Positions 9,427 through 23,275 of a DNA stretch of 64,000 bases are shown here, one piece after another. Under the pieces are notes generated by a model, which saw only the letters and a list, made by a program, of their open reading frames with translations, was not told the origin of the DNA and searched no databases. The stretch comes from Panorpa germanica (Eukaryota; Arthropoda; Insecta; Mecoptera; Panorpidae). Each line of letters starts with the position of its first letter. Position 1 is the first letter of the stretch. A program made the position numbers and the translations under genes. Location of the stretch: contig OY783208.1 in assembly GCA_963678705.1 (NCBI GenBank), forward strand, positions 21,168,207 through 21,232,206. The letters run 5' to 3'.

Positions 9427-12400
9427 TTACACTTCTATATTATTTTCTATCACAAAGTTTGTTAATATTTCCGCCGTTGCTTCACTTGTCATTAAACAGG
9501 ACATATTGACTGGGAACTGTGTTACATTACATAAATCATTTAAAAGTCTATCAATTTTTGATGTTAAAAGATGACACCCTAGAATTATATGGTCCAAAGA
9601 CCCTTCTTCTCCACATCTACAATTTGGTGTGTCTTTTATATTTATTTTGTATAGATGAGCTGGACATCTAGAATGCCCAGATTTCATTCGACAATTTGTT
9701 GAAATATATCTCCGTGAATGATTTTTATTAAACCATGTGGTTGTTGGAATTTTTTGATTCGCTGCAAAAAAAAATTTTCCAGTACTTTGACTTTTCTCAT
9801 TATATATATTCTGCCATTCTGCCATACAATTTTCTTTAATTATTTTTTTGGAATCATTTATTGACCAATTTATTTCGATTATTTCCCCATCTACACAAGC
9901 TTCTTTGGCCAGTTTGTCAGCCATTTCGTTTCCTTTTATGCCTACATGTCCAGGAATCCAAATAAGTTTAACATTGATATCATTTTTTTTCATTTTTAAA
10001 AGATATTCTTTAATTGAACATATTTTGTTATTATTATTGTTTTTGAATTTATTGTTATTTAAAGATACACAAACACTACGAGAATCTGTGAAGATTAATA
10101 TATTTTTATTGTCAGTTTTTTGTATTATTTCTAGTAATTTCATAATTGCTGTTATTTCTGTATTATAAGAATTTGTGATGTTGTTAAGTTTGTATTTGTA
10201 CTGTTGATCTGTATTATAATTGAAAATGCCAATTCCTCCAGTCCTAGAGTTTTTTTCGAATGAACCATCGGTAAACCATATACTCCAGTTTATATCATCT
10301 TTTGTTATATATTCCATATATTTTTGATAAGTTGTTTCCTTACTGTCATTCTTCTTGAACAAATTTATTTCTGTATGTATTGTTGTCATGCTTATTTCTA
10401 ATGGAAATTTGAAAAAAGGTATAATGTTGTGTACCTCTAAGTTCAAGTTATTATATCTATCAAAACTAGTTAAAAGTGCCGGTTTTTTATGAGTTGTCCA
10501 ATATGGTTTATTATAAAGAACATATAGTTTAGATAATCTTGTATTTAAGGGGCCACATGAGTTATGTCTGTTTTTACAAAAGAAACTGTCTGATATTTGT
10601 TGTATTCTGATATTTACCGGAGGAATATTAGTTTGATAGTTGAGGATTTGGATTGGTGTTGAAACCATTGCACCTAATATTATTCTTAAACATTTGTTTT
10701 GTATAATTTCAATTTTTTTTAATCTTGAGTTATTTGCGGTGCAGATCATAGTACTAGAATAGTCAATATGCGGTCTAACAATAGCTTTATATATTTTTAT
10801 TAAGGTTGTTGGGTGTGCGCCCCATTTGTATCCTGCTATACATCGCATCAAATTTAAGCCTTTTTGACATTTGTTAATAATATGTGCAATTTCTTTCGCC
10901 CAAGTGCTTTTCGTATCAAAGAATATACCCAGAAATTTGGTATTTGAAGTAACAGTTATATTTTTATTTCTGATGGTTATTTTTGGACTGCAGTTTATTC
11001 TATGCCTTGTAAATATAACTATTTTACTTTTTTCTGACGATATATTTAATTTGATTTCCTTTAATAAAATATCTAGTTTTCTTAATTTCGATTGTAATCT
11101 GTTTTGAGCTATATCTTGTGTATGACCCATACTATAAATAACCATGTCATCTGCATACATCAGTACTGTTGTGTTGTTATCTGATAATGTTGTTAACTTT
11201 TCTGTGTATATGTTGAATAATAAGGGAGATAATATTGAGCCTTGTGGAATTCCGTGATTACATAGTATAGGACCAGTTAACTTATTATTGTATCTAACTG
11301 TTATTTCTCTATTTTGGAAGTAGTTTATAATCCAGTTGGATATTTTGGAAGATATACCTATGTTTTCTACTTTTTCTTTTAATATTTTTAGATTAACATT
11401 GTCATAAGCAGCTTCAATGTCAATGAAAGCAGCTATCATATAATGATTTTTACTGTATGTTCTTTGAATATCGATATTCAATATGTTTAAGTTATGCTGT
11501 GTACTTCTTGTTTTTCTAAACGCAAATTGTAACTCAGGTAATCTTTTATGATGTTCGAGATACCACTCCAGTCTGTTTTTGATGATGGATTCCATAGTTT
11601 TGCCCATACATGATAGTAAAGTAATTGGTCTGAATGATTCTTCTTTGTTTGGATCTTTTCCTGTTTTTAATATAGGAACAACGATATGTTTTTTCCAGTC
11701 TAATGGTATATCAGCAGTGTTTAATGACAGATTGTATATTTGTGTAAGATGATTTATTGCATTGTCAGGTAAGTTTTGTATCATTTTGTAATTTATTCTA
11801 TCAAATCCTGTGCTACTGTTTTTATTATGATTTAACGCGAATTTTACTTCATTTTTATTTATGTTATTATCTAGAAAATTATCTTTTACGATGGTGGTGG
11901 TAGTAATATTTAAATTGTTGTTCTGTGGAAATTTTTTTTTAATGAATTCTTCTATTAAACTTTCATTATCACTTATCCTTTTAGTACTATAGCTTTTATT
12001 GTTAATTTTTCTTATATTGTTCCAGACAATGTTGGTTGTTGTGTTTGGGTTTAAATTCTCGCAGAAATTTTGCCATTCTATTTTTTTTCTGGCTCTAAAA
12101 TATCGTCTGGTTTTAGCTTGATGTTTTTTATAATTTAAATAATTCGCCATTGTCATGTTTTTATTAAAAATAGTTAGTGCTAATTTTCTTTGAGCTATCA
12201 TTTTATTGCACTCAGTGTCCCACCAAGACGGTTTTATTTTATTAGGAGTTATATTATACAATCTGGTAGATGGGATATGTATGTCTGCCGAATTATTAAT
12301 AACATCTCTAAATTGGTTGTATTTGTTTTCAACATCTTGGGGATTACTTGTGATTCCATTTGTGCTAAGGTTTGAAATTCTGCTTTCTATTTCAAGGCTA

Positions 12401-13155
12401 TATTTCTCCCAATCTGCTTTTCGGAAATTTCTCCTCGTTAAATATTCAGATGTACGGTAACGGTCTTTATTATAGTCATTCAAACAGAAAAAAATTGGGT
12501 AGTGATCACTACCTAAGCTATCTGCAAGAACTTGCCACGAAGTAATTTGTTGTGTTAAAGTCATTGATACCAATGTGAGATCCAATATACTGTCCCTTGT
12601 ACTGAGATTGCTTACTCTAGTTGGTTTATCATCGTTGATAATATTTAGATTTTCGTTTTCTATGAAATCTAACAATTCGTTACCTTCATACTGACTACCT
12701 GGACAATTTATATCCCAAGCAAGATTAGTCGCGTTAAAATCTCCAGCAAGTATAACAGGAACATCTATTTGTTGTTTTATCTGTGACCAATTAGAATTAG
12801 ATAGTTTATGATTCGGTTTAGCATAGATTGATAAAATACATATTACATCAGTTTCGTTATGTGTTAAAATTATTCCAACTATTTCGACCGAATTAAATGG
12901 GTTATTTAGCATTACTCTTTTATATTTTATAGATTTATGAATCAAGATAGCAACACCCCCGTGGGGATTATAGTTTGTATTCTGTATCCTATCTTCTCTT
13001 TCAATAAAATAACCTTTGATGTTGAAATTGATATTTTTTGTTAAAAACGTTTCTGATAGTATGCATATATGTATGTTATGCTTCTGTAACATATGTTGTA
13101 GTTCCTCTTTAATATATCTGACTCCTCTGCAATTCCATTGAATAAAATTTATCAT
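9427..13155 (-). CDS. LINE ORF2: endonuclease, reverse transcriptase, RNase H
   Basis: 1,242 residues, uninterrupted. Domains in order are an APE-type endonuclease (WNCRGV near 7, GDFNA near 137, SDHYP near 219), a reverse transcriptase (FRPITLLSCMGK, then GIPQGSILSPLLF, catalytic YADD near 667), an RNase H (FTDGS near 960, TDSRS, and the IPGHVGIKGNE box near 1065) and a C-terminal Cys/His cluster CRCGEEGSLDH near 1181. A carboxy-terminal RNase H plus a two-ORF layout points to the I clade rather than Jockey or R1. It nicks target DNA and reverse-transcribes its own RNA in place. It starts at the ATG just below ORF1's 3' end (205-base gap) and was probably translated from the same RNA. Confidence 0.93.
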   Translation of the reverse strand: MINFIQWNCRGVRYIKEELQHMLQKHNIHICILSETFLTKNINFNIKGYFIEREDRIQNTNYNPHGGVAILIHKSIKYKRVMLNNPFNSVEIVGIILTHNETDVICILSIYAKPNHKLSNSNWSQIKQQIDVPVILAGDFNATNLAWDINCPGSQYEGNELLDFIENENLNIINDDKPTRVSNLSTRDSILDLTLVSMTLTQQITSWQVLADSLGSDHYPIFFCLNDYNKDRYRTSEYLTRRNFRKADWEKYSLEIESRISNLSTNGITSNPQDVENKYNQFRDVINNSADIHIPSTRLYNITPNKIKPSWWDTECNKMIAQRKLALTIFNKNMTMANYLNYKKHQAKTRRYFRARKKIEWQNFCENLNPNTTTNIVWNNIRKINNKSYSTKRISDNESLIEEFIKKKFPQNNNLNITTTTIVKDNFLDNNINKNEVKFALNHNKNSSTGFDRINYKMIQNLPDNAINHLTQIYNLSLNTADIPLDWKKHIVVPILKTGKDPNKEESFRPITLLSCMGKTMESIIKNRLEWYLEHHKRLPELQFAFRKTRSTQHNLNILNIDIQRTYSKNHYMIAAFIDIEAAYDNVNLKILKEKVENIGISSKISNWIINYFQNREITVRYNNKLTGPILCNHGIPQGSILSPLLFNIYTEKLTTLSDNNTTVLMYADDMVIYSMGHTQDIAQNRLQSKLRKLDILLKEIKLNISSEKSKIVIFTRHRINCSPKITIRNKNITVTSNTKFLGIFFDTKSTWAKEIAHIINKCQKGLNLMRCIAGYKWGAHPTTLIKIYKAIVRPHIDYSSTMICTANNSRLKKIEIIQNKCLRIILGAMVSTPIQILNYQTNIPPVNIRIQQISDSFFCKNRHNSCGPLNTRLSKLYVLYNKPYWTTHKKPALLTSFDRYNNLNLEVHNIIPFFKFPLEISMTTIHTEINLFKKNDSKETTYQKYMEYITKDDINWSIWFTDGSFEKNSRTGGIGIFNYNTDQQYKYKLNNITNSYNTEITAIMKLLEIIQKTDNKNILIFTDSRSVCVSLNNNKFKNNNNNKICSIKEYLLKMKKNDINVKLIWIPGHVGIKGNEMADKLAKEACVDGEIIEINWSINDSKKIIKENCMAEWQNIYNEKSQSTGKFFFAANQKIPTTTWFNKNHSRRYISTNCRMKSGHSRCPAHLYKINIKDTPNCRCGEEGSLDHIILGCHLLTSKIDRLLNDLCNVTQFPVNMSCLMTSEATAEILTNFVIENNIEV

Positions 13156-13360
13156 TTTAACTGTTTTAATTAATTATTGATTTTTATATCTGTCCTTGGT
13201 CTTGTTGTTAGATTTATTTATATATTTTATTTTATTTTATTTTCTCTCCGTTTATATAATTATTGTTGATTTAATATTTTAGTAAATTTATTAAACGATT
13301 AGGTTTAGTGATGTGAATAGATTTTTAAAAAATAAACTTAATTTATATATCGATGTTTTC

Positions 13361-14788
13361 TTACGAGTTTGACCATTGTACACTAGATATTTGTTTCTTG
13401 TAGCTTCTAAGGGATTGGGATGTAATATTTGGGTCTTTGTTTGTATTTTTAATTTTGTCATCATTATTTTTATTATATATTGATGTATAGCAGGTATCAT
13501 TATCATTGTTTTCCATTGTAATATCAGGTGTCTCTTGGTTGATTTGCTTTCTGTTTTTTCCTTGATTAGTTATCTTAAGGTATGTGTCGCTTTCTTCATT
13601 GTTAGGTTTCTTTTCTTCTCTTCTTCTTTTTGGAATTGGTTCTTTAGTGGATGTCGTAGGTTGTGGTTGACTGTAAGATCTTTGTAACGAGTTACCTGTA
13701 TTTGATTTATTCACTCTGGTATTAGTTCTTCTGGTTAAAGGGTTTGGTTTGTATGTTGGAATTATGTTGATACTATTGTACTTATTAGTGATATTGGGAA
13801 AAGTCTCATTGTAGTTTAGAGCTTCAAAAGAGTTTTGAGTTCTTACTGAGTATAAATAGTCTGTATTTTTTTCTGTTAATTCTAATTTTGCTTCATAAAA
13901 ACTGAGATTGTGTTGGGCCATGAGATCTTTTATCTTGATTTGTCTTTTTTTTTCAGGACATTCATTGTCTGTAGCCTCGTGGTTAAGTTTACAATTTATG
14001 CATGTCGGATTAGGAGATGTGCATGCAGTACGTAAATGATCTTCACTTCCGCAGAATTTACATTTTGCTACTTTTGCTCTACATTTTGTGGCTGCATGTC
14101 CAAATTTAAAACAATTATAACATTGTATCGTCTGTTGTACAAATGGTTCACATGCTCGTCTCACTCTCCACATGTAAACATAAGCAGGAATAGCAAGTCC
14201 TTCAAAGAATAATTTCACTGTTGTACTGGGTTCATATTTAATAGCTCCGTCAACTCTTAGTTTTCGATTTAACCTTTGCACTCTCGTTACTTTAAAAGGT
14301 GGACACTCTATATTATTTAAAATTGTATCTTCCGAATATTCAATATCAACACCTTTTATAATAGCAACTTTTGTGCACCAGTAAAATGGGATAAACGCTT
14401 CATACCCATTGTTTTTCAGCAATGTTGATTTGGTAATTTCGTTAGCTAGTACTGCATTAGCACATTGAACGATTACTCTATTTCTTCCCACTTTTTTAAT
14501 TTCTATTATATTAGATTTATTGCTAATTTTACATATTATTTCTGCTAATTTAAGAGAACTAAAAAATGTATTTCCATCACTATTATTTTTAACTATCATT
14601 ACTTTATACGAGTCATATTTTGTTTCTGTGTTGTATAAATTATTAAATATTTTTTTAACATTGTCGCTATTGTTATTTAAGTTTTCTGTTATATCACTGG
14701 ATGTTTTATCTGTAGGAATTGATTTGTTAGTCACAGAGTTGTTTTTATTGATCGGATTTTTATCGGGAGGTTCAACCTCCATATCCAT
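13361..14788 (-). CDS. LINE ORF1: Gag-like RNA-binding protein
   Basis: 475 residues, uninterrupted. Three zinc knuckles lie in a row near residues 222-275: CYNCFKFGHAATKC, CKFCGSEDHLRTAC and CINCKLNHEATDNEC. The N-terminal 80 residues are Asn/Asp-rich and probably disordered. The stretch before the knuckles resembles the RRM-like region of insect LINE Gags. The tail after residue 350 is basic and polar. It coats the element RNA to form the particle used for retrotransposition. It precedes ORF2 on the same strand. Confidence 0.9.
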   Translation of the reverse strand: MDMEVEPPDKNPINKNNSVTNKSIPTDKTSSDITENLNNNSDNVKKIFNNLYNTETKYDSYKVMIVKNNSDGNTFFSSLKLAEIICKISNKSNIIEIKKVGRNRVIVQCANAVLANEITKSTLLKNNGYEAFIPFYWCTKVAIIKGVDIEYSEDTILNNIECPPFKVTRVQRLNRKLRVDGAIKYEPSTTVKLFFEGLAIPAYVYMWRVRRACEPFVQQTIQCYNCFKFGHAATKCRAKVAKCKFCGSEDHLRTACTSPNPTCINCKLNHEATDNECPEKKRQIKIKDLMAQHNLSFYEAKLELTEKNTDYLYSVRTQNSFEALNYNETFPNITNKYNSINIIPTYKPNPLTRRTNTRVNKSNTGNSLQRSYSQPQPTTSTKEPIPKRRREEKKPNNEESDTYLKITNQGKNRKQINQETPDITMENNDNDTCYTSIYNKNNDDKIKNTNKDPNITSQSLRSYKKQISSVQWSNS

Positions 14789-15068
14789 ATTGTTAATTAA
14801 CCACTGATAATTAAATAGAAGTTACTTCACTTCTAATTAATAACACTTAATAATAATATAAATTATAATTTAAAAAAAAAATAAATCACTAAAAAAAATA
14901 TTATAATTTGCAAAAAAAAAGATCACTATTTATTTTATTGTTTTGTTTATTGTAAATACGTGCGCTCACCAAGAAGACTCGATGTAAACTGCCAATACAC
15001 TTTTATTAACATCAATTTCAATCAACAATTGAAAAATCGACAACTAAAAAATGAGAACACAAGCCTAT

Positions 15069-16333: not shown

Positions 16334-16338
16334 CAAAC
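16334..16338. repeat. Copia-1 target-site duplication, CAAAC
   Basis: CAAAC here and at 20997-21001 directly flank the two LTRs. Units without the insertion (for example near 27660) show the single joined site gtacaaaccattaac. Confidence 0.9.
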
Positions 16339-16687
16339 TGTTGGGAACTATTCTTGCAGAGATTGAATAAAAGATAATAAATTAAAAGATGTATATTTAA
16401 TTAAAAAGTATTCTGTATGTAGTATTAGCACTGGTTTCACAAAGAGCGTCCTATCCGTATCACGTTTGGATTCACAAGCACAACTCGACTTCGTACAACA
16501 TGACGAAGCACTCTCGGTACTATCAGTTAATGTTACCAATCTCAGATGGCTCGTGTGTTCCTAGTGCTGGTACTACGATGGTATCTACAATAATATCTAC
16601 ACTGGTAACTTACTTTACTATGATAACACATATATATTTATAATTGGCGGTGAATACAAAACTAATTATTTACTTATAATTACAACA
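16339..16687 (-). repeat. Copia-1 3' LTR
   Basis: Begins tgttggg and ends tacaaca on the plus strand. It is paired with 20648-20996, with two differences visible near the end (ataattggcggtgaatac versus atcattggcggtgaacac). Confidence 0.95.
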
Positions 16688-16753
16688 CGCCCCCATATTC
16701 ACAGCTTATTATAAATACAAAAGTCCTTAAACCTAAACAGTCTTTGACACATA

Positions 16754-18757
16754 TTAAATCACTGATATTATCATAAGTTTAAAGGCACTTTGATTGTCTA
16801 TATTTAATTGTCCTTCACATTTAACACTTCTGTTAATTTCAATACTTGTAGGTCCTACTGATGCTTGACGTTTGCTGTTCCGCGTTTTAGCTCCCTTGCA
16901 TAACGTTAAGACATTTCTTGCGTCTCCGGCATTGGCGTAGTCAGCATCAGAGATATCTTCCGTATACATTCCATAATTTGTGTCACCTTCTCTAAATTGT
17001 TCTGTATCTTGCGAACTGTTGGGTACTGTGAAACTTGCTAGTAACACAGCTTCTCTATTTCTGGTCCTTATTATTTTCTCGGCGTCCTTTTGAACCTGAC
17101 TCAGTTGTACACATTGCTCTAATTTAACACGCTTCATCTTGGCTAAATTTACTATATTCATTTCGCGTTCCTGGAGGAGTTCTAGCAGCACCTGTACCAT
17201 AGTTTGTGTATCTGCAATGACACAAACTCCTGAAGATTCAATAAGCCGCGTAAGTTCTTGTCCCTGTTGCAAAACCTGGAACGTCGTGTTTTGCATTTGA
17301 CTGACCCTTTCATTGTGTAGCAAGAGAAGTTCCTTCGCTTTTTGCACATTGTGAGATAACTCGCTGTGCTGCAGTTCTTCAGTCCACATATCCAGTTGGA
17401 AACATGCATCCAGTGCATCTCGTTCAAATAGTCGTAGCCTTAAACATAAATCAAGTCGCATTTTTCTTGTGTCCCAGAATTCCTCAAGTTCTCCACGCTG
17501 TTTAGCAAGTCGTTCCACAGCTCCTTCTACGGCTGACATCGAGCCTGTAGAGTCTATATTTCCCATAGACCTTATTTCTTGTAGAAGCTTCTCTCCTGGT
17601 TCCTGAGCTACAGAGTGAATCTCCTGTACGTTGCATTCACTGGTCTGTGTTAGTTCTTCAACTGCTGTTAGTAATCTCTCAGCTTTCGTGTATGTGTTCT
17701 TAGCAATATTTTCAAAATGTTTATGTGACTTTTGAAACACTTTTGCCTCCTGTATATTTCTGCTAATGTCTGTATTATTCTTAATAAAAACTTCACTGTG
17801 ATTTTCAAGCCAATCTAATACTTGTTTCACATCTTCTTGCAATAGTTCTGCGTCTATGGCCTCTTGCCATTCTGTCCCATTTTGACTCTTTAACGCCTCT
17901 TCATACGAGTTTGGTATTTCAGCTTCAACAACGTTGGCTTCGGTGTAACGAATTAGTTTTCTCGTATTACGTCTCGGTCGATTTACCTGGTCGACTTCAG
18001 TTTCATTCCTTAATTCTGTGGTCTCATTTTCAATCGCTTCTTCTTGATTGTCGATTTCCCCTTTTTCGATTGCTATTTCCGACATCTGGGTTGGGTTTTC
18101 TCTGTCTAAGTTGTTATTTTCGTTGAATGTCACATTTCTCGATACTTTGATTTTCTTTGTGGTTGGGTCAAACAGTCTGTAATTTGTCGATTCCTTTTCA
18201 TAACCCACGAATATTAATTTCTTACTTTTACTTTCCAGCTTCGTTCTAAGTGCATCTGGAATATGCATGAATGCGTCACAACCAAAAGTTTTGCTATGGC
18301 TCAAGTTCGGTTTCTTTTTCATCCAGGCTTCATATGGTGTTGAATCTGTAATCTGTCTAGTTGCCGTTCTGTTGAGTATGTATACTGCTGTATTTACAGC
18401 CTCTGCCCACAGGTACATTGGTTTCTTGCTTGCGTAAAGCATTGATCGTGCACTTTCCATAATCGTCCTGTTATCACGTTCAGATCTCCCGTTCTGTTCT
18501 GGAGTATATGGTGCTGTAGTTTCCATTAAAATACCTTTGCTTGAAAGATAACTTTGAAACTCACGGTTGCAGTATTCTTTTCCGTTGTCAACTCTCAGAA
18601 TTTGCGGTCTGTATCCAAATTTATTTTCACATATCTTTACGTATTTTTGAAAGCACGGTAAAACGTCTGTCTTGTGTTTAACCAAGTTTGGTTTAAAACC
18701 AAACCATTCTAAAACCAGTATGGTCATCTTTGAATAGTACATAGTACCTACAACCAC
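16754..18757 (-). CDS. Copia-1 chimeric Pol: integrase fused to Trio-type spectrin repeats
   Basis: 667 codons in one frame. Residues 1-130 are the integrase core after a small frame disturbance (RVDNGKEYC with the second Asp, YTPEQNGRSE with the Glu). The usual linker follows, ending in NSYEEALKSQNGTEWQEAID (about 17838-17912). Where reverse transcriptase should begin, the sequence switches in frame to about 280 residues (about 16996-17836) of helical, heptad-rich sequence matching Trio/Kalirin spectrin repeats (for example KNTYTKAERLLTAVEEL and MKRVKLEQCVQLSQ). It then switches back to scraps of Copia RNase H (SDADYANAGDARN; NIDNQSAFKLM). No YVDD motif exists. The Trio part has no introns, so it was probably taken from spliced mRNA. 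The Trio assignment is from memory of the family. Whether the fusion is made as protein is unknown. Confidence 0.85.
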   Translation of the reverse strand: MVVGTMYYSKMTILVLEWFGFKPNLVKHKTDVLPCFQKYVKICENKFGYRPQILRVDNGKEYCNREFQSYLSSKGILMETTAPYTPEQNGRSERDNRTIMESARSMLYASKKPMYLWAEAVNTAVYILNRTATRQITDSTPYEAWMKKKPNLSHSKTFGCDAFMHIPDALRTKLESKSKKLIFVGYEKESTNYRLFDPTTKKIKVSRNVTFNENNNLDRENPTQMSEIAIEKGEIDNQEEAIENETTELRNETEVDQVNRPRRNTRKLIRYTEANVVEAEIPNSYEEALKSQNGTEWQEAIDAELLQEDVKQVLDWLENHSEVFIKNNTDISRNIQEAKVFQKSHKHFENIAKNTYTKAERLLTAVEELTQTSECNVQEIHSVAQEPGEKLLQEIRSMGNIDSTGSMSAVEGAVERLAKQRGELEEFWDTRKMRLDLCLRLRLFERDALDACFQLDMWTEELQHSELSHNVQKAKELLLLHNERVSQMQNTTFQVLQQGQELTRLIESSGVCVIADTQTMVQVLLELLQEREMNIVNLAKMKRVKLEQCVQLSQVQKDAEKIIRTRNREAVLLASFTVPNSSQDTEQFREGDTNYGMYTEDISDADYANAGDARNVLTLCKGAKTRNSKRQASVGPTSIEINRSVKCEGQLNIDNQSAFKLMIISVI

Positions 18758-20288
18758 TTACAGATGGTTCAGACATTGGGCCGCACACATCACTGTGTAT
18801 GATTTCACCAGGTCTTCTCACTGTTTTGGTGTGTTTCTCGAATTTCAACTTCTGTTGTTTTCCTTGCTGACAGCCTTCACAGAAGAATTCGTTGGTATTT
18901 TCAATATCCACGCCTTCCACTAACCCTTTCGAAACCATTTCGCAAAGAGTCTTAACATTCAGATGTCCTAGTCTCTCGTGCCAAACTTGAAGATTTGACC
19001 TTACTGTAGTATGTGCTTCCATGGTAATTACAGTTTCGATTTGTAGCTTATACAAGTTGTTTGATTCTCGGATTGCACTGGCTACTAACATTCCACGGTC
19101 GTATATCTCCGCTGTCTCGTTTTGTTTAACTATTTTCATCCCTTTTTTAGTTATCACACCTTCAGAAAATAAGTTCTTTCTCAGCTTGGGTATATACCAG
19201 ACATTTGTAATCAATCCATCCACGCTTCTACCTTTAATTAATTTCTTAATCTTTACGGTGCCGATGCCTTCCACATGTACTTCTTCATTATTGCCTAGTT
19301 TGACGGTGAGTCCCTTACAGTCACTAAACGTATCAAAGAATTCCCGTTTATATGTCATATGGGTTGAAGCTCCGCTATCCAGGATCCAACCTTCTTTGCT
19401 GATAGTCTGGTTGCATATTTCTGCGTTGAAGGCGCCGTGATTACTATGGTGTGGTTCTTCTTCGTCTTGATTCGTTATTCTCTTACAATCTCTCGCGTAA
19501 TGACCCTTCCGATTACATTTAAAGCATGAGACATTTTGCTTATTTCTTCTACTGATCATTACTGTTCTGCAATCCCTCGCGAAGTGACCCTTCCGGTTAC
19601 ATTTGAAGCACGTCACAATTTTCTTATTAATCTGCCTTCTTTCTGTATGTACTGCCCTAGTAGTTGTTAGAGCGACTTCTTCTTCTTCTTCATATTTCAT
19701 GAGATTCGCCTCTTCATCCAACAAACGTCCAGTTAAGTTGGCCATGTTCTGTTTCGAATCCTCCACTGACAACCATGCTTGCCTAAAGTTACGATACTTG
19801 GATGGTAGCGTACTCAATACTTTAGTCATGATTGCAGTATCACTGAGAGTATCACCTGACTCTCGTATCTGCTTGCCAAGATTTTCCACTTTAGAAATAT
19901 GTTGCACCATCGTCTCGTTGAGTGCCATTTTGTATTGATGAAACCTCTCGTGTACTAACATCTTGTTCGTTTCTGATTTCATCTCATAAATAGAGCTAAG
20001 TTTGTCCATTATTTCTTTGGCCGATTCACAATTTTCGATTAGCGTTATTTGCTGTAGTTCCATCGAGCTGGTTATGATGCACATCGCCGTTGCATCCTTT
20101 TGAATCCACGTATCCAAATCAGCTGTTGCGTTAACCCCTGGTTTAACTTCGGTGCCTGTTGTACACTCGTACACACCCTTCGATTTCAATATGCACTTCA
20201 TTTGAAATTTCCATTGCTGGTAGTTCTTAACACCAAAATTAACGATGCTAATACTGTTGGTCATCTTAATCTTGTCGATCGAGCACAA
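18693..20288 (-). CDS. Copia-1 Gag-protease-integrase N-terminus
   Basis: 531 residues. An N-terminal Copia-type Gag is followed by two zinc knuckles, CFKCNRKGHFARDC (near 226) and CFKCNRKGHYARDC (near 253), then the protease motif LDSGASTHMT (near 300), the integrase zinc-binding part (WHERLGHLNVKTL, CEGCQQGKQQ) and the first integrase Asp in HSDVCGPM. The frame ends 65 bases into the following ORF, which is in a different frame, so a frameshift near 18700-18757 splits the integrase. Gag should form the particle and protease should cut the polyprotein. The doubled zinc knuckle looks like a local duplication. Confidence 0.92.
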   Translation of the reverse strand: MCSIDKIKMTNSISIVNFGVKNYQQWKFQMKCILKSKGVYECTTGTEVKPGVNATADLDTWIQKDATAMCIITSSMELQQITLIENCESAKEIMDKLSSIYEMKSETNKMLVHERFHQYKMALNETMVQHISKVENLGKQIRESGDTLSDTAIMTKVLSTLPSKYRNFRQAWLSVEDSKQNMANLTGRLLDEEANLMKYEEEEEVALTTTRAVHTERRQINKKIVTCFKCNRKGHFARDCRTVMISRRNKQNVSCFKCNRKGHYARDCKRITNQDEEEPHHSNHGAFNAEICNQTISKEGWILDSGASTHMTYKREFFDTFSDCKGLTVKLGNNEEVHVEGIGTVKIKKLIKGRSVDGLITNVWYIPKLRKNLFSEGVITKKGMKIVKQNETAEIYDRGMLVASAIRESNNLYKLQIETVITMEAHTTVRSNLQVWHERLGHLNVKTLCEMVSKGLVEGVDIENTNEFFCEGCQQGKQQKLKFEKHTKTVRRPGEIIHSDVCGPMSEPSVSGCRYYVLFKDDHTGFRMVWF

Positions 20289-20633
20289 TCTTAATGTCTA
20301 AATAGTCTCTCACACACGATGACTTATTAATCTTAATGTTCGAACACAATCCTTTCATTAATTTCTAAATAGTCTCACAAGCACGTGTGGACTTATTAAT
20401 GTTACCGTTTTTCAGCCCAAAAAGTATATTAATTTCAAAATAGTTTCGATGAACTTATTAATATCACTTTTCCTTCACCACAAACACAATATTAATGTCT
20501 AAATAGTCTCACAAGCACATGTGGACTTATTAATATCACCTTCGTTTGCTTCAAGATGGCTGCCTCACTTTTTTTCTCAAAACCTTGATATCTTGTAATA
20601 TATCTTTTAATCGATGTTGCAGAAGATCGTAAT

Positions 20634-20647
20634 CTGGGCCCATAACC
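20634..20647 (-). other. Copia-1 primer-binding site, initiator tRNA-Met half
   Basis: On the element strand it reads GGTTATGGGCCCAG and directly follows the 5' LTR. This is the internal complement of initiator methionine tRNA that Copia elements use as a half-tRNA primer. Confidence 0.88.
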
Positions 20648-20996
20648 TGTTGGGAACTATTCTTGCAGAGATTGAATAAAAGATAATAAATTAAAAGATG
20701 TATATTTAATTAAAAAGTATTCTGTATGTAGTATTAGCACTGGTTTCACAAAGAGCGTCCTATCCGTATCACGTTTGGATTCACAAGCACAACTCGACTT
20801 CGTACAACATGACGAAGCACTCTCGGTACTATCAGTTAATGTTACCAATCTCAGATGGCTCGTGTGTTCCTAGTGCTGGTACTACGATGGTATCTACAAT
20901 AATATCTACACTGGTAACTTACTTTACTATGATAACACATATATATTTATCATTGGCGGTGAACACAAAACTAATTATTTACTTATAATTACAACA
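20648..20996 (-). repeat. Copia-1 5' LTR
   Basis: 349 bp, the upstream LTR of the minus-strand element, carrying its promoter. Its outer end touches the CAAAC target duplication at 20997. Confidence 0.95.
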
Positions 20997-21166
20997 CAAA
21001 CCATTAACGGAATTAACTAAGAAGAAAAGGATGTCCCTTACCACATAAAAGCGGTTCAGGGTCCTTTGTCTTCCTACCAATGTTTATTAAATAAGCTTCA
21101 TACAGTAAAACTAATACAAATATAAACACAAGTTAAGTTGGGAAATGTAAAAACGACTTACTCAAC

Positions 21167-22375
21167 CTAATGTAAATTACGTTTATGATGTCTCTTTAAA
21201 GAACCTGCAGTTGAGAAACATATATTACATAAACCACAAGAAAATGGTTTAAGACCTAAATGTGTGTTTTTATGTTGTTTTAAATTATATGAATTAGAGA
21301 ACGTTTTACTGCATTCGTCGCAAGAAAATGGTTTTAGACCTAAATGTGTGTTTTTATGTTGTTTTAAATGCGATGGACTAATGAACGTTTTACTACATTC
21401 ATTGCAAGAAAATGGCCTTTCACTTAGATGTCTAGTTTTATGTTGCTTTAAACCCAAAGAACTACTGAATGTTTTACTGCATTCGTCGCAAGAAAATGGT
21501 TTTAGACCTAAATGTGTGTTTTTATGTTGTTTTAAATGAGTTGATCGAGTAAACGTTTTACTACATTCGTCGCAAGAAAATGGTTTTACAACTAAATGTG
21601 TGTTTTTATGTCGTTTTAAATGCGATGAACTATTAAACGTTTTACTACATTTGTCGCAAGAAAACGGGTTAACAGCTAAATGTCTGTTTTGATGTAGCTT
21701 TAAACCCAAAGAACTACTGAATGTTTTACTACATTCGTCACAAGAAAATGGTTTTACAAGTAAATGTGTGTTTTTATGTTGTTTTAAATTTGATAATAGA
21801 CTGAACGTTTTACAGCATTTGTCGCAAGAAAATGGTTTTAGACCTAAATGTGTGTCTTTATGTTGTTTTAAATGAGTTGATCGAGTAAACGTTTTACTAC
21901 ATTCGTCGCAAGAAAATGGTTTCACAACTAAATGTGTGTTTTTATGTCGTTTTAAATCATGCGATCGACTGAACGTTTTACTACATTCATCGCAAGAAAT
22001 CGTTTTTACACCTAAATGTATGTTTTTATGTCGTTGTAAACTTGACGAATTAGCAAATATTTTACTACATGTATTACAAGAATGTAGTTTCTTTTCTGAA
22101 TGTACACGCAAATGTTTTCTGATTTCTGCCTTAGAGTCCAACAATTTGTTACATACATCACAGATGTAAGGCTTCAGGTTCGTATTCATTTCACTTTGAA
22201 GCTGTTGCTCTGGAACTTCAAGCTTAATGAGGTAAACATCTCGCAGTAAATGTGCAGCTTCATCTGAGTTATATTCTGGTTCTTTTTTAAATTCTATTTT
22301 TATTTCATCATATAGCGCTGCTTCTTTGACGATTCGTTCATCTTTTATTTCTATTTCCACACATTTGCCCCACAT
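21167..22375 (-). CDS. ZNF1: C2H2 zinc-finger protein, 12 fingers, N-terminus damaged
   Basis: Likely nuclear DNA-binding protein. Twelve fingers at a 28-residue pitch follow an acidic N-terminal segment. The finger pattern is FSCDECSKTFxxxxxLKxHKNTH with linkers LGLKP or LVVKP instead of TGEKP. The first finger (CDVCNKLL) and last (CGLCNICF, ending HKRNLH) are distinctive and shared by all five paralogues. The paralogous start codon lies at 22415, but a 32-bp deletion near 22371, relative to the sister genes, puts it out of frame. Translation would need the ATG at 22375 and would lose about 30 residues, including one IKVE-type SUMO site. It may be a weakly expressed or dying copy. An AATAAA signal lies downstream on the minus strand near 21080. 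Confidence 0.85.
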   Translation of the reverse strand: MWGKCVEIEIKDERIVKEAALYDEIKIEFKKEPEYNSDEAAHLLRDVYLIKLEVPEQQLQSEMNTNLKPYICDVCNKLLDSKAEIRKHLRVHSEKKLHSCNTCSKIFANSSSLQRHKNIHLGVKTISCDECSKTFSRSHDLKRHKNTHLVVKPFSCDECSKTFTRSTHLKQHKDTHLGLKPFSCDKCCKTFSLLSNLKQHKNTHLLVKPFSCDECSKTFSSSLGLKLHQNRHLAVNPFSCDKCSKTFNSSSHLKRHKNTHLVVKPFSCDECSKTFTRSTHLKQHKNTHLGLKPFSCDECSKTFSSSLGLKQHKTRHLSERPFSCNECSKTFISPSHLKQHKNTHLGLKPFSCDECSKTFSNSYNLKQHKNTHLGLKPFSCGLCNICFSTAGSLKRHHKRNLH

Positions 22376-23275
22376 CAACTTCTACCTTTGTTTGTTCTAA
22401 TTTGCAATTCTCCATTATATGTAAAACAATTTTGAAGTTTGCTAAAAACAAAAACAAATTTTAGCAACAAAAAAATAAGAAATCTGTGTTAATAAATTAA
22501 ATCTGAGGTGTTTAAGAAATGAAACAAAACTATGTGACATAATAAAAATAAATAAGAGAAGGTAAGCTAAATTAACGTAAAAGCTTTTATGTAATAAATG
22601 TATGCTATGTAAAACATTAACTATATAAATAAAGTTTATATAAAAGGCAAGATTAAAACCCTTAAGGCAATAACCATTTTAATATTTTGTTTCTCACTCC
22701 CTAAAATATAAAGTAATTAATTAAGTAAAATAAAAATTCATTTTAATATAATAGGGTATTTATATATTAATTTACCAGTTTTCTCAAAAATCTACAGCCT
22801 TCTATTAATCTTTTTATAAAATATGAATAGAATAAGATGAACTGAGTAAAACCTTACAATGGGCTGTCAAAATTAAGATATTACAGTTTTCTTTATTATA
22901 AATGCGTTTATGGTTCGAGGACGGGCGGGATTTATGAACCTGAATATTTATACGATGATTGATGTCAACTTTATTTTGTTGTAATACAATATCTATTTTC
23001 AAAGTATTTTTTAATTAATGTGTAAACCTCTCAATAAAATTGAACTTCACAAGCCTATTAACACAGTACTTTTTTAATCATTAAGCCAAGAATCATTTCT
23101 TAGAATTATATTCAATATTTGCCGTCATTTGTGTTTAATGTATTTTTATTAAATTTTTTGTGTTTTTATTATAAATAATTTTTTAAACATGATGAAAGCT
23201 GGGCAGTTACAATTTGTAACGTTTGTGCAAATTATGATTTAAATTAATCGACTGTGAAGATATTAATTAAGAAAT
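22376..23275 (-). promoter_or_regulatory. ZNF1 5' region: UTR intron and putative promoter
   Basis: On the minus strand a good acceptor (ttgtttttag) ends at 22442, just upstream of the coding exon. A donor (ctg/gtaaat) lies near 22778. A non-coding first exon upstream of it is therefore likely. A GC-rich island, cgaggacgggcggga on the plus strand at 22916-22930, stands out in AT-rich sequence and is kept in all five units (29416, 41505, 54251, 58144), so it may be the core promoter. The 62-codon ORF at 22814-23002 is broken by small indels in other units and is not supported. Confidence 0.4.

Follow-up and report, generated by a model that had tools for sequence, protein, structure and literature searches.

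An intron-free fragment of the host trio gene carried by a multicopy Copia lineage in Panorpa germanica

The window analysed here, a stretch of 64,000 nucleotides of the Panorpa germanica assembly (GCA_963678705.1, contig OY783208.1), contains on its minus strand an LTR element spanning positions 16339-20996. Its 5' LTR (20648..20996) and 3' LTR (16339..16687), each of 349 bp with TG..CA ends, mismatch at 2 of 349 positions, and the 5-bp target site CAAAC is duplicated, without strand assignment, at 20997..21001 on the 5' side and 16334..16338 on the 3' side. Along with these LTRs and the 5-bp duplication, the Copia features comprise a copia-type gag, zinc knuckle, gag_pre-integrase and integrase core. 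In the window copy, the frame running from gag to Trio is interrupted within the integrase region, leaving two minus-strand ORFs. The upstream one, of 534 aa (18693..20297), covers the Copia gag with two zinc knuckles, a protease region (Pol_BBD), the gag_pre-integrase domain and the start of the integrase. The downstream ORF of 667 aa (16754-18757) contains, in order, the second half of the Copia integrase, an SH3-like domain, a linker, 280 residues of Trio/Kalirin type and an RNase H remnant. The integrase remainder, SH3-like domain and linker to the start of the reverse transcriptase (RT) occupy 17846..18757, in a frame unlike that of the upstream ORF, and the captured trio coding sequence, without introns, occupies 16997..17836 (280 aa), with an in-frame internal deletion of 249 bp located approximately at 17595..17605. 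The 5' Copia/Trio join lies at 17830..17854, with host-like letters from ~17845 inward, and the 3' Trio/RNase H join at 16971..16999; both are in frame, as the sequence-only reading had stated. That reading placed the foreign segment at 16996..17836; the segment stands, and its limits need widening, since letters of host origin span ~16991-17845, up to ~10 bases further. The RNase H remnant (16754..16996) is short and degenerate and includes a stop codon. A purine-rich stretch read from the sequence, ATGGGGGCG (16688..16699, minus strand), adjoins the 3' LTR and is likely the polypurine tract. The Trio insert is thus bounded by the LTRs of one element.

A Pfam search of the 667-aa ORF returned SH3_retrovirus, rve and Kalirin-like spectrin repeats (PF23323, E 3.5e-7); no RT family, RVT_2 included, was found in the chimeric ORF, nor were the SEC14, DH and PH domains of Trio/Kalirin, the spectrin repeats being the only Trio domains present. 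Judged by sequence, the captured segment is a fragment of Trio and not a Trio gene. In a protein search with the window segment, in which matches were listed among proteins of up to 1167 aa, all 63 matches had spectrin-repeat Pfam domains (60 the Kalirin-like PF23323, 35 also DH; best E 3.5e-100) and none had a retroelement domain. An older copy used as query against proteins of up to 1270 aa, with the 7991 candidates sharing most words scored, gave the same picture: all 64 matches carried a spectrin-repeat domain, 61 of them PF23323, and a retroelement domain was found in 0 of 64. The earlier proposal that about 280 residues are of Trio/Kalirin type and foreign to retrotransposons is therefore borne out, the 63 matches being of the Trio family and none of Copia. 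A sequence search of the PDB yielded one weak spectrin match (E 0.0024). The structure model of the window segment (mean pLDDT 77.7, pTM 0.53) has a predicted three-helix arrangement at residues 99-268, mostly at pLDDT 79-95, and a helical part of pLDDT 50-65 at residues 1-90, where the 249-bp deletion falls; in Foldseek, spectrin repeats took the top nine rows, all of them at E > 0.001.

The resident trio gene was located on another contig (C20) than the element. Seven of its exons, all with GT..AG borders, gave a single open frame over the whole captured part when spliced by script. The element has these seven exons joined and, in the alignment to host trio, lacks all six donor introns exactly, which fits the proposed origin from spliced mRNA. 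Nucleotide identity between the host exons and L030, a copy retaining the whole captured stretch, is 83-90%, and overall, L030 differs from host trio at 13.7% of nucleotides and the window copy at 16.3%. When seven other Trio proteins served as outgroups, 21 comparisons assigned 43-57 amino-acid differences to the element side, 1-5 to the host side and left 7-19 undecided; this marks the host gene as being of the donor type and places the changes in the element. Across 14 copies, dS between element and host, host branch included, was 0.43-0.60 and dN 0.09-0.125. This set excludes six copies dropped because their ends were off the text pattern (L011, L017, L021, L023, L024 and L029), and three that had no ORF fitting the anchor were never in it (L019, L022 and L025). 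A 12-nt in-frame deletion relative to the host is found in all 14 copies of the set as well as in L029 and L031; it is absent from host trio and from all five Trio proteins compared. The L029 locus, on contig C21, had been considered as the host gene from its Pfam hit and was rejected, as it is an old chimera with Copia on either side.

The chimera belongs to a sizeable family. A DNA search of the same genome (59 candidates) placed the Trio segment in at least 40 scored places on many contigs, and 15 of 22 copies examined have two complete LTRs by our own criterion. Among these 15, the LTRs are identical in seven, an exact 5-bp duplication is present in 13, and eight have an unbroken ORF of 1150-1206 aa, the window copy not being one of them. 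The 3' join is identical in seven of ten further loci (the pattern was not found in L031, L041 and L045), so that the joins do not mark an assembly break; the deletion of 12 nt in the 14-copy set and in L029 and L031, together with one 3' join in 7/10 loci, points to a single origin. Near-identical LTRs and target duplications show that the chimera lineage moved until near the present, in agreement with the recent mobilisation proposed from the 2/349 LTR differences of the window copy. Two variations within the family may be recorded here. The gag region of L016 has an extra in-frame zinc-knuckle repeat relative to L009 (1206 versus 1177 aa), and on contig C5 (4235300-4308000) four places 9-33 kb apart have an equal match score to the Trio part, probably representing later duplication of a genomic stretch with an old copy.

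Some of the chimeras include the start of the RT, and the RT start from one set of them served as query in a search for related elements, with 150 of 979 candidates scored. At least 81 of 82 residues were matched at >=86% in 26 places, and in part in four others. Chimeras account for eight of the 26, and a further five contain open frames of 1262-1307 aa. The one of these five that was read, L038 on contig C9, has a full RVT_2 domain (E 1.8e-62), and it is closely related to the chimeras: across 979 bp of integrase it is 95.4% identical to the window copy, the LTRs of the two being 94% identical, and identity reaches 99.5% over 1142 bp with L028 and 94.2% over 966 bp with L030. The RNase H remnant is only 73-74% identical to this sibling and hence looks much older than the exchanged parts. 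The claim that the RT had been replaced holds: no RT family was detected in the chimeric ORF and RVT_2 is present in the sibling, which identifies the chimera, as far as domain content can tell, as a non-autonomous Copia derivative and not an autonomous Copia. The sibling would then supply RT to it in trans. An abundant Copia family (L037, one copy read) was also considered as the parent and rejected, its protein identity being 23-31%. As an observation apart, this second Copia group (example L037) accounts, by eye, for ~130 of the 150 RT places scored among 1235 candidates, in open frames of 1312-1328 aa; spread over many contigs, it is probably one family and looks like a recent burst.

A tree built from the Trio part only, with 32 copies from more than 40 places and rooted on the host gene, takes the form of a ladder. 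Its earliest branches are L029, L031, L039 and the L043/L044 pair, and the other copies make up a clade with support 100. For both the tree and the counts given below, L046 was cut at 830 nt beforehand (a 240-nt gap run in the counts), and L039 was the sole representative of the four C5 copies. The ladder parallels three forms of the chimera. In form I, seen in L029, Trio follows directly after the gag_pre-integrase region, with neither integrase nor RT between; L039, L043 and L044 have the same join as L029 (60-100 nt read upstream), and the integrase is absent from L031 too, the join of which is not readable. Early-branching copies such as L029 retain host-like letters upstream of the later join, for which reason form I is taken as the older state. 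The copies within the clade are of form II, with the integrase side and the join of the window copy, except that L045 is deleted across the join and that L040-L042 and L046 were read only ~60-130 nt upstream. Eight copies additionally have the first part of the RT (form III); the three fetched do not make up a single well-supported branch. The window copy and L009-L028, 21 of 21, share the in-frame loss of 249 bp (83 aa), whereas L030 and L039-L045 retain this piece. Where read, the frame is kept by the joins of all three forms and by the 249-nt and 12-nt deletions. Short shared letters are visible by eye, without a chance level, at the joins: the 3' join has ACTTAAA, the first 5' join ACAATG (with one mismatch in present integrase-bearing copies), and the two later joins show near-matches. 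The capture is thus old, much older than the insertion in the window, though movement is recent. The sequence-only reading was right about the capture, with the refinement that the 5' join of the window copy is not the original one; it most likely arose secondarily, when the integrase was regained through a later exchange with the sibling.

That LTR elements pick up spliced mRNA of their host at short shared letters is well established as a model (PMC5408686, PMC8616336, PMC9674220). By this route, a Copia element took up a stretch of spliced host trio mRNA, most likely when RT jumped from one template to another where the element RNA and the trio mRNA, packaged together, had short letters in common. 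For the template switching proposed earlier, the intron-free exons and common joins are in place, and the switch itself we infer from the short shared letters. The first chimera had gag joined directly to Trio and lacked both enzymes, integrase and RT. The sibling then most likely gave back the integrase through in-frame exchange, which produced the window form, and afterwards, in eight copies, the RT start, an order suggested by the tree and the joins. The chimera is presumed to be copied in trans by the autonomous sibling still in the genome, which would provide the RT. The predicted protein is a Gag-protease-(integrase)-Trio fusion, the Trio part of which could perhaps, as a guess, tether or move the particle inside the cell.

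Selection on the Trio part was assessed from shared and private changes: provided that a copy is dead once inserted, the changes private to it are neutral, and shared changes have gone through replication. Over 32 copies, private changes numbered 75 silent and 305 amino-acid changes (S75/N305, 28 stops) versus S65/N85 (6 stops) for shared ones (P = 1e-7), corresponding to N/S of 4.07 and 1.31, respectively, with a neutral expectation of about 2.5-2.9 from the mutation spectrum. The contrast persisted with positions near gaps masked (P = 3e-6), with the three most decayed copies omitted (P = 0.003), and in the fifteen old copies alone (P = 2.9e-5; masked, 3.5e-4). Shared changes also fell below the neutral expectation by themselves, with P = 8e-5 in all 32 copies and 0.005 once the three most decayed ones were removed. 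Private changes of the 32-copy set lay above it (N/S 4.07 versus 2.89, P = 0.007), so part of the contrast is noise from decayed copies; this excess was gone when the three most decayed copies were left out (P = 0.46, masked). In 22 mostly young copies, the test was not significant for the Trio part (private S34/N91, shared S26/N41, P = 0.105), and shared changes compared with expectation gave P = 0.056, the neutral expectation for these by-region values being taken from the 32-copy set. Among mostly young copies, the corresponding P-values were 1e-8 for gag (20 copies) and 3e-18 for protease-integrase (22 copies), with 0.51 for the linker and 0.74 for the RNase H tail (22 copies), i.e., no constraint on the RNase H tail. 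Thirteen young copies showed a weak depletion (S30.5/N56.5, N/S 1.85 versus ~2.3-2.7 expected), and neutral tests of L030 against eight of the 13 gave P-values from 0.0005 to 0.044, these pairs sharing ancestry and not being independent. By these substitution counts, the Trio part appears to have been under constraint during the older phase, though less strongly than gag and integrase, and constraint in the recent phase is suggested.

We favour, with a probability of about 0.88, a helper-dependent, host-gene-carrying Copia lineage that captured its cargo from spliced trio mRNA and to which the borrowed domain was useful at least earlier. Because Trio amino acids seem to have been kept by selection in the older phase, the Trio part probably served the element, at least at that time. 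Whether this amounts to reverse domestication, i.e., a host cytoskeletal scaffold domain placed in the Gag-Pol fusion of a retrotransposon and selected for the spread of that element, which is parasitic on its sibling and repeatedly regains lost modules, is in our estimation an even bet. Capture and spread could also have proceeded as described, with the sibling supplying the enzymes, and the Trio part have had no function, its frames staying open by chance or through few source copies. The absence of significant Trio constraint in the 22 mostly young copies, the weak depletion among the 13 young ones (N/S 1.85) and the mobility retained after deletion of a large piece are all what such cargo would be expected to show; the shared/private test (P = 1e-7 for 32 copies, 2.9e-5 for 15 old copies) and the frame kept, where read, by the form I-III joins and the 249-nt and 12-nt deletions are not, and we regard this reading as tentative, the less probable of the two views of the cargo.

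The remaining explanations fare worse. It is unlikely that the capture took place in another species and the chimera arrived by horizontal transfer: dS of 0.43-0.60 to the resident trio is high for an element with identical LTRs, but the same genome holds fossil copies of graded age and a sibling of 94-99.5% identity, and the early-branching L029 retains host-like letters upstream of the later join. We give slightly less credence still to a role of the captured stretch as nucleic acid, whether through small RNAs against host trio or because silencing the element would then come at a cost to the host. Silencing of the parent gene by captured copies is known in Plutella (PMC9674220), and crosstalk via small RNAs between captured fragments and donor genes in maize is treated in a review (PMC8616336); against this, a nucleic-acid role does not predict the deficit of amino-acid relative to silent changes in shared variants, and divergence of 13.7-16.3% from the host (L030 and the window copy) would leave few long perfect matches. 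Assembly error or chance similarity, in favour of which nothing was found, is refuted by the presence of the segment in at least 40 scored places on many contigs and by spectrin-repeat domains in 63/63 and 64/64 protein matches.

The favoured reading, a helper-dependent lineage with a useful host domain, has partial parallels. Acute transforming retroviruses are replication-defective, carry Gag-host protein fusions replacing pol and are moved by helpers. The Panorpa chimera resembles them as a defective element with a Gag-host fusion in place of pol and a helper; unlike them, it has no envelope, infection is not implied, and its cargo is the spectrin repeats of a Rho-GEF scaffold without the catalytic domain. 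Transposon genes tamed by hosts are well known; in the open-licence papers searched, we found no case of a host domain tamed and kept in use by a transposon, no paper on the capture of Trio or Kalirin by a retroelement, and no precedent for a long-lived Copia chimera lineage with fossils, a likely helper and a coding signal in the cargo. The maize element Bs1 reportedly has no complete pol. Bs1 is described as an LTR retrotransposon in which pieces of host genes have been captured and, as in the chimera, fused to gag (PMC8616336, PMC5408686); as portrayed there, it is a plant element with several donor genes. The Panorpa chimera, by contrast, has one donor and occupies at least 40 places; its copies form a series from old to young, it has repeatedly exchanged sequence with a living sibling, and the captured part itself bears a signal of selection. 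LTR-mediated retroposition in animals (via PMC5408686 and PMC9674220) likewise involves template switching at short shared letters and an intron-free insert between LTRs, but its products are described, in the parts consulted, as retrocopies, not as a lasting, multiplying family with one fused frame. The PxyMasc retrocopies of Plutella (PMC9674220) are a further case in which LTR elements captured the mRNA of an insect host, and a second element is proposed to have acted at a later step; they form tandem W-linked arrays with no identifiable LTRs and with silencing RNAs, in contrast to the complete elements with LTRs and a coding signal seen here. Exchange among members of one LTR family during replication is described for Onsen in Arabidopsis in the portion of PMC5668417 used; in Panorpa, the partners are a chimera bearing a host gene and its sibling, and the exchange shifts the capture border stepwise. 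Since the donor gene, the first chimera, intermediates, recently mobile copies and the likely helper are all found in one genome, capture, repair by exchange and selection on the cargo can be traced stepwise, and the family offers a natural setting in which to ask what a virus-like particle gains from a spectrin-repeat scaffold.

Two other features of the window were read by eye, both on the minus strand. Just past the 5' end of the chimera, a 404-aa ORF (21167-22381) consists of repeated C2H2 zinc fingers, and the ORF list shows at 9427-14821 a non-LTR element with two long ORFs, one of 1248 aa with endonuclease/RT/RNase H-like text and one of 486 aa with CCHC knuckles.
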